From assembly GCA_012519415.1 (NCBI GenBank), contig JAAYQG010000019.1:1-43931 (forward strand): DNA of 43,931 bases, given 5' to 3'. This DNA comes from Treponema sp. (GTDB lineage: Bacteria > Spirochaetota > Spirochaetia > Treponematales > Treponemataceae). A model generated the notes under the pieces. It did no database searches. It was given only the letters and a program-made list of their open reading frames with translations, and was not told the DNA's origin. Below are positions 20,223-23,097 of this stretch, piece after piece (within the stretch, counting starts at the first letter, position 1; the number at the start of each line of letters is the position of its first letter). Made by a program: the position numbers and the translations under genes.

Positions 20223-20238
20223 ATATCTACCCTACGTC

Positions 20239-20448
20239 CTAATTTTTTTCTATTTCAATAGCACAGTCCGGACACATAGTTGAACAGAAAGTACATGCTA
20301 TACATAAACTTTCATCAAAACAGACAGGATAATGAACACCCTGACCATTTGTGTCTTTTGACATTTCAAGAATTTTCTTTGGGCAAGCTCGAATACAAAG
20401 ACCACAGCCCTTACATATTTCTACATTAATAACTGGCTTTCCTGCCAT
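20239..20448 (-). CDS. 2-oxoacid:ferredoxin oxidoreductase, delta (ferredoxin) subunit
   Basis: 69 residues with two complete 4Fe-4S motifs: CKGCGLCIRACP and CIACTFCSTMCP. It transfers electrons from the TPP subunit to ferredoxin. First gene of the four-gene operon, 16 nt before the alpha gene, with GGAGG upstream of its ATG and a good promoter at 20481-20509. Confidence 0.94.
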   Translation of the reverse strand: MAGKPVINVEICKGCGLCIRACPKKILEMSKDTNGQGVHYPVCFDESLCIACTFCSTMCPDCAIEIEKN

Positions 20449-20581: not shown

Positions 20582-20791
20582 AAATATGCAAAAAACATAA
20601 TTTTTAAAATACCTGTTGCAATAGAAAAATTAGACGGTAAAGATATATTTGTTACTATTTCAGTCGGAGTATCTTTGTTCCACCCTAAAGATAAATCTAT
20701 TGAAGATGTTATAAGTCGTGCAGACAAAGCATTGTACATTGTTAAAAAAGCAGAAAGAACCAAGTCTGTTTGTATAATTTTAATTAGATAA
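20582..20791 (+). pseudogene. Relic of a GGDEF (diguanylate cyclase) gene, C-terminal end
   Basis: A 69-codon open stretch between TAG 20579-20581 and TAA 20789-20791 has no start codon at its head. It reads IPVAIEKLDGKDIFVTISVGVSLFHP... followed by VISRADKALYIVKKAERT. This is the last third of a GGDEF domain (TISVGVS; RADKALY.vKk). The GG(D/E)EF active-site loop and everything before it are gone. It is transcribed, if at all, away from the oxidoreductase operon and toward the lipoprotein gene. Confidence 0.8.
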
Positions 20792-20811: not shown

Positions 20812-22497
20812 TTAAAGTTTTGAAATACGAACCAGCCAAACTCGCCCTGATGAAAAGCCCCAGTTTTCAGAAATGTATCTGTCTAATTTTACAGCAGAAT
20901 CATAAAAACCTTTTCCGTTTGTCTCAATCACATAATCCACAAGTTCCGGAAAACGTTCATTTATTGTGCGTCTTGGCGCAATAATTTTTGTAAAATAATC
21001 TGCAACTTCACTCAGCGGTTGTTGTAAAAGATATGCCATAAATTCATTTTGAACTAAATATTCATCTTTAATATCATAATTAAGAGAAGGTGTTACGCTA
21101 AAATATTTCAAAAGGAATTCAAGGCTTTTTTTATCGCACGAATCATATACTTCAGAAACTTTTCTTCTAAAATCTGAATTTATAAAATAAAGACAATGGA
21201 ATCCTTCGTGAGCAATGAATTTCCAACGAAGATATCTGCTTGATTCTTGCGAGATTGAAATTAAAGCACCGAGTCCTGCACCGTAAGAGTTGTCTGTTCT
21301 AACAGTAATAATTCCATGTGCTATAAGAATATCACGAAGTATTATCTCATATTCGTTAAGCGGAAAATTATTGAGTCGCGCAAGCTCAAAAAAGTCTGCA
21401 AGACTTTCAGCTCTATAATCGTGAGCATTAAAACCATGCTGAAAACTCAAAACGGAATCTACAACAAGTTCTCCTCTGTAACCTGCTTTTTCAACAAAAA
21501 ACGCAAGCCGCTTGAAAAACAAATCTTGAACAGCATAATCTCTTGTATCAAAAATCAAAATATTTGGAAACTGTTCCCATGAAAAAACTTCAAAATCTTC
21601 GCGCCGCCATGCAGATTTAGGCCAGTCTGCAATAAAGCCCGGCTCGGCAACAATTGGAGCAAGCGGCGTTTCTACAAAAACGGGAAGAACCGGCTCAAAA
21701 ACAAGCCCTGCAACAAGATCGCTTCCGTTTATTATGGAAGCTGTTTTTTCAGCATCTGCTTTTTGAAGCAAAGCCGGATAAATCGTTATGTTTTTTTGAT
21801 GGGGAGCAATTTGAATATCAACGCCGCTACCGCCAACATTCAGTCTGACTATTTGATTAAAATATTTTGAAATAAGCACAGTATCTTCTGTTAGCTGAAC
21901 AGTAAGTTTCATTGCAGGCTTTTCACTTATACTAACAGGCTTGCTAAAACCTCCGACTTCTCCACCGTCTGCGCCGAAACCAAACCAATCAACATCGCTT
22001 TTTGTAGACCAACCTATTTTAGCATTAACAATTTCAGCAGAATCTATAATTGTTGGTACTTCAGAATAGAGAAAAAAACCACGCACATTTTTGTTATCCG
22101 GAACAGCAAGTGAAACACGCAAAGATTTTTCCGCTTTACCTGTAATAAATTGATGAACACCAAGATTTTCTGCAAGCTTAAAAGGTGCAACAAAATCTTC
22201 ATCGAATAACCAGCCGAAATAAAAGCGCGGTTCTTCTGCATATGTTTTGCCGAAAGATAATTTCAACTCTAATGCCATTTCTTTGCAAATTTTATCGCCA
22301 AATTCATCAAAAGCAAAATACATATAACCGGAATTCGGTTTTTTAGGTATTTCTGCATTTATAGCATTTTTGTTCAAAGCATAAAGAGGAATTTTTGCAG
22401 TACCTGATTGTGCCATAAGTATGCTGGCAGTTTTTCTTGAACAAGAAAACAAGCTAACAATGCAAACAAGAGTTAAAAACATTTTTTGCAATTTCAT
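20812..22497 (-). CDS. Lipoprotein with zinc-metallopeptidase-like HExxH motif
   Basis: 561 residues. A signal peptide ends in LFSC with the lipidation cysteine at Cys19. Residues about 30-280 have no motif I recognise and look beta-rich. The C-terminal third has WKFIAHEGFHCLYF (His430, Glu431, His434) and, 50 residues on, YLVQNEFMAYLLQQP (Asn484, Glu485), the spacing and context of a gluzincin-type HExxH...E zinc site. I infer a membrane-anchored, periplasm- or surface-facing metallopeptidase of a poorly described family. The start has AGAGG before the ATG. It diverges from the unknown gene that follows. Confidence 0.75.
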   Translation of the reverse strand: MKLQKMFLTLVCIVSLFSCSRKTASILMAQSGTAKIPLYALNKNAINAEIPKKPNSGYMYFAFDEFGDKICKEMALELKLSFGKTYAEEPRFYFGWLFDEDFVAPFKLAENLGVHQFITGKAEKSLRVSLAVPDNKNVRGFFLYSEVPTIIDSAEIVNAKIGWSTKSDVDWFGFGADGGEVGGFSKPVSISEKPAMKLTVQLTEDTVLISKYFNQIVRLNVGGSGVDIQIAPHQKNITIYPALLQKADAEKTASIINGSDLVAGLVFEPVLPVFVETPLAPIVAEPGFIADWPKSAWRREDFEVFSWEQFPNILIFDTRDYAVQDLFFKRLAFFVEKAGYRGELVVDSVLSFQHGFNAHDYRAESLADFFELARLNNFPLNEYEIILRDILIAHGIITVRTDNSYGAGLGALISISQESSRYLRWKFIAHEGFHCLYFINSDFRRKVSEVYDSCDKKSLEFLLKYFSVTPSLNYDIKDEYLVQNEFMAYLLQQPLSEVADYFTKIIAPRRTINERFPELVDYVIETNGKGFYDSAVKLDRYISENWGFSSGRVWLVRISKL

Positions 22498-22542
22498 AAA
22501 AACCTCTTTAATAAATCAAAAAAAAAGCGCATAGTTCAAATA

Positions 22543-23097
22543 ATGAAAACATTCAAAGTCGCAGTATTAATTCCTCATGGAAACATACAATTTAAGCTCA
22601 TACAAGAACAAAAACTTTTTTGCAGTCAAACAAAAATAGTTAAAGCCACACCATTTTTATGTATTCTTGAAAAATTTGAAAAAGATATTCAAGTCGAGCT
22701 AATTTTATCCAAATATTTAAAACTTTTCCAGTCATTAACCTGTATTCCGGAACTTTTGCCTATAAAAATTGAAAATTCCAGAGCATTTAGAAGATTAAAC
22801 GAAGAAGTATCATCGCTTTTAACTGATAAATCTTTTCTATTAGGTAGCTTTTTATATAGAATCGGCGAATTTCTATACGGAACTTCAAAAATTAATTCTC
22901 AATCGGATTTCCAAATACAAGATGAAGATAATTTTAAGAATCTTTCAAAAAACATACCAAGCACAAATGAAAGAATTAAATGTAGAATTTTTCAGATTGC
23001 AGTTTTTACAATAAACGAAAATGAAAATTGTGTAACATGGCATATAGAAGCTGCAAAGTGGGTGCGTTCAAACCAGCCGGTTTTGCATAAGGATTGA
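22543..23097 (+). CDS. Conserved-looking protein of unknown function
   Basis: 184 residues from ATG 22543 (MKTFKVAVLIPHGNIQ); the open frame begins 19 codons earlier but those codons overlap the divergent lipoprotein gene and look random. No signal peptide, membrane segment or recognised motif. The middle is acidic and the end reads VTWHIEAAKWVRSNQPV. No Shine-Dalgarno is visible; CATAGT ends 7 nt before the ATG, which would fit a leaderless start, but the -35 is weak. Its stop codon touches the first base of a 53-bp repeat unit. Function not recognised. Confidence 0.65.
   Translation: MKTFKVAVLIPHGNIQFKLIQEQKLFCSQTKIVKATPFLCILEKFEKDIQVELILSKYLKLFQSLTCIPELLPIKIENSRAFRRLNEEVSSLLTDKSFLLGSFLYRIGEFLYGTSKINSQSDFQIQDEDNFKNLSKNIPSTNERIKCRIFQIAVFTINENENCVTWHIEAAKWVRSNQPVLHKD

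Follow-up and report, generated by a model that had tools for sequence, protein, structure and literature searches.

A putative envelope zinc metallopeptidase, lipid-anchored and gluzincin-like, from a probable new protein family of treponemes and their relatives

Gluzincin metallopeptidases form clan MA(E) of MEROPS. Enzymes that combine an HExxH motif with a further glutamate are mostly peptidases, and the zincins share an order of elements in which a sheet and an edge strand are followed by the active-site helix and the glutamate helix. One HExxH zinc peptidase of the bacterial envelope is BepA, a periplasmic member of family M48. Treponema pallidum has an HEXXH lipoprotein of its own, Tp0751 or pallilysin, that was reported as a metalloprotease (PMC3406077) and is described as a lipocalin-fold protein with constructs extending to residue 237 (PMC7521688). 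The history of Tp0751 shows that activity needs to be measured (PMC7521688, PMC3406077).

Here, we describe a putative spirochaete lipoprotein that contrasts with Tp0751 in that its HExxH motif is under total constraint. Its gene lies on contig JAAYQG010000019.1 of a Treponema sp. assembly (GCA_012519415.1); the whole stretch of 43,931 nucleotides that was analysed is called the window, and the features of the locus are collected in Table 1. We read the product as a zinc metallopeptidase that is held on a membrane of the envelope by a lipid anchor, belongs to a new gluzincin-like family and has been inherited mainly vertically among treponemes and their relatives, and we put the probability of this reading at roughly two in three.

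Table 1. Features of the lipoprotein gene, its product and the divergent neighbour (window positions)
Feature	Position	Strand	Basis
Complete gene for 561 aa, beginning at ATG	20812..22497	(-)	Open reading frame; sole copy in genome
AGAGG, ribosome-binding-site-like, before ATG	22503..22507	(-)	Read by eye
Signal peptide with lipobox-like LFS-C19	22441..22497	(-)	Sequence; homologue alignment
Variable N-terminal region, residues 20-275, mostly beta in low-confidence model	21673..22440	(-)	Alignment, AlphaFold
Conserved C-terminal catalytic-type domain, residues 276-561	20815..21672	(-)	Alignment
HGFNAHDY motif, residues 354-361	21415..21438	(-)	Y361 178/178, H359 174/178; D360-F438 coevolution
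HEGFH, residues 430-434; would supply two zinc ligands and the general base/acid	21196..21210	(-)	H430, E431, H434 each 178/178
Tyr474, candidate transition-state stabiliser	21076..21078	(-)	Tyr 174/178, Phe 4/178
NEFMAY, residues 484-489; third zinc ligand would be Glu485	21031..21048	(-)	E485 178/178, N484 173/178; helix-helix coevolution
Divergent neighbour, 189 aa from ATG, not proven part	22528..23097	(+)	Close copies in 3 congeneric loci

The position, minus strand and length of the open reading frame given by the sequence-only reading proved exact when the DNA was read again, and HEGFH and N484-E485-F-M-A-Y489 are present where they had been seen. The GC content of the gene (0.359) is in keeping with its surroundings (0.354). 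A cysteine at position +1 of the signal, the feature of bacterial lipoproteins, can be read from the sequence as C19 of the window protein. The same column holds Cys in 59 of 61 aligned homologues and a gap in the other two, a count that is biased towards cysteine as the start codons of homologues were chosen partly by the lipobox; a lipobox-like pattern occurs in 55 of the 61 with starts chosen in this way. The lipid-anchor signal of the sequence-only reading is supported. The predicted anchor is not family-wide, since members from the Borreliaceae and from outside the Spirochaetia deviate; the two intact Borreliaceae members that were read have a signal-like start and no Cys at the lipobox position. 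The N-terminal region had been described as long and beta-rich. It is indeed long, and variable, while its richness in beta structure was seen solely in a low-confidence model. In one genome (G069, contig C169:8751-11003) this region seems to be duplicated before a single catalytic domain, within an 803-codon frame.

One line of evidence for our reading is the conservation of the putative zinc site. The alignment of the C-terminal domain comprised 202 rows, of which 178 were kept after dropping duplicates and rows with less than 75% coverage, and the median pairwise identity in a subsample of pairs is 39%. Only eight non-gap columns of 288 are fully invariant, namely R330, Y361, E384, H430, E431, H434, L481 and E485, and four of these eight are the two histidines and the first glutamate of HExxH, a motif that is conserved family-wide as in gluzincins, and Glu485. 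The chance of all four motif columns landing among the invariant ones is about 1e-6, a figure that counts 11 invariant columns, three of them without a query residue. Because the four motif columns are invariant among so few invariant ones, the pattern of HExxH and glutamate is not a product of chance, and the C-terminal gluzincin-like domain that had been suggested is upheld at the level of its predicted motif residues. Near-invariant in the same 178 sequences are Q324, E336, K337 and Q492 (177 each), N357 (176), H359 (174) and Y474 (174 Tyr and 4 Phe). The distance from H434 to the glutamate varies between 48 and 58 residues, being 48 in 87 sequences, 51 in 77, the window protein included, and otherwise 49-58 in the remaining 14.

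A second line of evidence comes from mean-field coevolution, calculated on 272 columns at an effective depth of 145 sequences. Among the top pairs, Y451-V482, F443-M487, F443-L491, Y437-Q483 and S448-Q483 link the helix that carries Glu485 with the extended active-site helix. Between the HExxH helix region (residues 424-451) and the Glu485 helix (478-493) fall 4 of the top 30 pairs, with 0.38 expected, and 5 of the top 60, with 0.76 expected; when segments of these sizes were placed elsewhere, 64 of 23,948 placements gave the latter count. These predicted contacts argue, as an indirect test, that the HExxH helix packs against the Glu485 helix. The sequence-only reading had named histidines that lie apart or buried as the outcome that would speak against it, and since the coevolution sets the two helices against each other, the indirect test points away from such a fold. 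The invariance of E485 and the coevolution suggest, from sequence rather than from coordinates, that the third ligand is a glutamate whose helix lies against that of HExxH. Two further pairs, D360-F438 and S365-F438, place the NAHDY motif near the HExxH helix, and I313-A411 pairs one strand with the GALISIS strand. The order of elements deduced for the C-terminal domain would agree with the zincin order, as expected of a zincin. AlphaFold was run on the full-length protein and on the domain only, with six and five close relatives as input, and gave mean pLDDT values of 40.5 and 47.2, models too poor for zinc placement. The better of them has, at low confidence, a strand directly before the HExxH helix and E485 on a further helix, and a Foldseek search with this poor model returned unrelated proteins only and no match at E <= 0.001.

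The sequence-only reading had recognised no family, and profile searches of Pfam and NCBIfam point the same way. The window protein matched nothing in Pfam and NCBIfam at E <= 10. Among 48 members searched at E <= 1, 14 Pfam and 5 NCBIfam families appeared, each matching one member only, so no consistent family match was found; the best stray E values were 0.0017 (Pfam) and 4.1e-4 (NCBIfam), and the Pfam profile of M48 matched none of the 48. Six more proteins were scanned, one of them the neighbouring oxidoreductase; the other five (distant relatives or a Borreliaceae member) gave sub-threshold profile matches only, and two additional members had likewise no Pfam family above the cut-off. Against the sequences of the PDB, the profile built from alignment A1 gave a single chain, at chance level (E 1.6), and the A4 profile none. 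No paper on this protein family was recognised in searches of an open-access library. By these searches of Pfam, NCBIfam and the PDB, the protein belongs to a predicted new gluzincin-like family of a known kind of enzyme, not to a new kind of system.

The family is single-copy in the window's genome. Relatives were found in 97 of 118 genomes of the order, in 211 of 394 genomes of the class at E <= 1e-20, and in 139 (alignment A1) or 143 (the wider alignment A4) of 392 genomes of the phylum. The A4 matches include five genomes that lie outside the class and belong to a single family; the protein there is a shorter core. At four loci outside the Spirochaetia (L118, L119, L206 and L207) the relatives have about 240-260 residues and the same core, with neither the N-terminal region nor an evident signal; the match in the fifth genome (G276) is short and weak (E 4.9e-6). 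The relatives of about 240 residues retain equivalents of R330, E336, G342, E384, HExxH and E485, and since they keep these core residues without the N-terminal region, the C-terminal domain is an independent unit. They adjoin at all four loci a 203-aa protein that looks by eye like a DNA glycosylase. No family member was found in 21 of the 118 order-level genomes; these are genuine absences, and they include all seven sampled genomes of one genus (g15) and a 1.1-Mb single-contig treponeme genome in another (g20). The absence from g15, from 183 of the 394 class genomes and from one of two sister genera of Borreliaceae, together with decayed copies in three Borreliaceae genomes, indicates that the gene is dispensable. 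In a tree of 177 sequences the 78 members from the window's taxonomic family fall together in a single clade (support 0.998), and 13 of 20 multi-member families are monophyletic, while 7 are not. As the tree mostly follows taxonomy, inheritance looks mainly vertical. A scan of one genome per species across 84,980 species confirmed five loci, all from records whose titles name spirochaete MAGs; it used a single-protein pattern of low sensitivity and is the only wide test of distribution. In a scan of IMG/VR with the family alignment, 33 stretches fitted a pattern and none was confirmed, and tblastn against plasmids and phages gave no match. An origin from phages or plasmids was rejected, given this lack of matches and a tree that runs mostly along taxonomy.

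In the window the lipoprotein gene stands apart, with the divergent gene upstream of it and, beyond about 400 bp downstream, a ferredoxin-like small ORF followed by a 2-oxoacid:ferredoxin oxidoreductase pair. Read by eye, this ORF (about 20236-20445, minus strand, about 68 aa) resembles a two-cluster ferredoxin with two CxxCxxC-type patterns and lies before the oxidoreductase genes. At 20594-20791 on the plus strand, about 66 open codons resemble by eye a GGDEF domain in its C-terminal half; every frame is stopped upstream of them, and they are probably what is left of a decayed diguanylate cyclase. The divergent upstream genes of many loci encode a fast-changing protein of about 200 aa, often starting ...PHGN or ...PHRD, and no Pfam family was above the cut-off in the two that were tested. 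In 27 of 57 loci from several families, a second gene family is found directly upstream on the same strand and usually overlapping (for example L037:9788-10564, with 26 other loci; alignment A5). It has weak DUF4037/nucleotidyltransferase similarity, with a best Pfam E of 3.4e-5 and matches in 7 of 12 members. The two genes are adjacent in 36 of the 40 order-level genomes that have both; in the window's genome the nucleotidyltransferase-like neighbour was not found. Despite the adjacency, a functional link is weakened by one-sided genomes, as 5 of 45 order-level genomes with the nucleotidyltransferase-like gene lack the zinc-protease family and 57 of 97 with the latter lack the former. We read the pair as an old operon that was later broken up, a joint function being not proven.

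Among the Borreliaceae, 36 genomes were searched, and a match was found in 18 of 18 genomes of one genus and in 0 of 18 of its sister genus. Within the genus that has it, the gene is decayed in three genomes (G210, G322 and G334), in three different states; G323 and G325 have an open frame of 480 codons and, beside it, a single TAG inside the aligned stretch. In two loci of this genus that were read fully the gene is flanked by an insulinase-like gene on one side and a TPR-bactofilin pair on the other, and these neighbours led us to drop the idea that the Borreliaceae copy is BB0543. In the sister genus, all four loci read from the 18 genomes have the same neighbours only about 0.44-0.47 kb apart, compared with 1.9 kb between the corresponding neighbours at L101 in the genus that keeps the gene. 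From the gene order and the BB0537-BB0538 numbering in PMC13393453, we infer that the genus with the gene is the relapsing-fever group and the genus without it the Lyme group. In B. burgdorferi, the bactofilin BB0538 has been reported to organise the insertion of peptidoglycan (PMC13393453). A functional link to the bactofilin was rejected, and the proximity is regarded as positional because the same neighbourhood is kept in the sister genus that lacks the gene.

Several other readings have to be weighed against a peptidase of a new family. The protein could be a very diverged branch of a described clan MA family (SprT-like, M48 or M78), which would be compatible with the mechanism proposed below. 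One Borreliaceae member has a sub-threshold SprT-like match (E = 0.087) that scores 13.1 bits where the cut-off is 25.6, but the failure of any Pfam or NCBIfam family to match more than one of the 48 members, or the window protein at all, and the lack of a credible match to a solved chain make this origin rather doubtful. A zinc hydrolase that acts on a non-protein target, such as a peptidoglycan cross-link, a glycan or a lipid-linked group, appears unlikely to us. The motif sets the zinc chemistry and leaves the substrate free, the position next to TPR and bactofilin-like genes in two Borreliaceae loci would suit work on the wall, and 14 of 57 loci have a glutamate racemase-like gene (by eye) at a distance of two to four genes downstream; this has to be set against the rule that enzymes with HExxH plus Glu are mostly peptidases and against the persistence of the bactofilin neighbourhood without the gene.

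That the protein works on the cell surface, as a protease directed against the host or against competitors, is very improbable. Spirochaete lipoproteins can reach the surface, yet this one is single-copy, mostly vertically inherited and kept across many families of the class, and it has no match on plasmids or phages. Finally, the HExxH motif might be structural or merely bind metal in a non-catalytic protein, for which Tp0751 is the cautionary parallel by its history (PMC3406077, PMC7521688). The invariance of both histidines and both glutamates in 178 sequences, the coevolution of the two helices and the retention of the same residues in very distant relatives weigh against such a protein and leave it quite improbable.

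In the membrane-anchored peptidase that we favor, Cys19 would be lipidated after export, leaving the protein on the membrane and facing the periplasm. The protein very probably holds a catalytic zinc ion, which H430, H434 and E485 would coordinate, E431 would activate the zinc-bound water, and Y474 or the NAHDY loop may steady the transition state. The edge strand that aligns the substrate would be GALISIS (410-416), which immediately precedes the active-site helix, and the variable N-terminal region might select or position the substrate. Given the wide, single-copy and mostly vertical retention, a housekeeping role in processing or clearance of envelope protein, not in attack on the host, seems most likely. 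As a tentative extension, the family may be the founding one of a spirochaete envelope zinc peptidase, present already before the Spirochaetia and at least one further spirochaete lineage separated, that clears or matures periplasmic envelope proteins in most members of the class; its loss, in the presumed Lyme-type Borreliaceae and in the reduced 1.1-Mb treponeme, would possibly mark a changed running of the envelope in some host-restricted lineages. A protein that bears a full zinc-enzyme signature, is kept in single copy throughout much of a bacterial class and still lacks a family name is an annotation gap, and the clean split in presence and absence between two Borreliaceae genera offers a natural comparison.

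How the spirochaete family relates to the described systems can be seen in both likeness and difference. Like the gluzincins, it has HExxH on a predicted helix and the later Glu on a second, coevolving helix, a strand right before the active-site helix and a near-invariant Tyr ahead of the third ligand. Unlike them, it spaces H434 and the glutamate by 48-58 residues, has conserved upstream HGxNAHDY and KRLAFFxEKxGxxG blocks, and shows no profile match to any described family. With M48 and BepA it would share the nature of an envelope HExxH zinc peptidase, while its third Glu stands in NExxAY and the 48 members gave no Pfam M48 match. The DUF4037-type nucleotidyltransferase-like protein is a neighbour and not a relative, a separate and presumably cytosolic protein. 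Tp0751 is likewise a treponemal lipoprotein with an HEXXH motif; however, the HExxH of the window protein is located in a C-terminal domain of 286 residues that is mostly helical and includes the invariant Glu485, and the length of 561 aa together with the helical HExxH segment of the low-confidence model would argue tentatively against a lipocalin like Tp0751.
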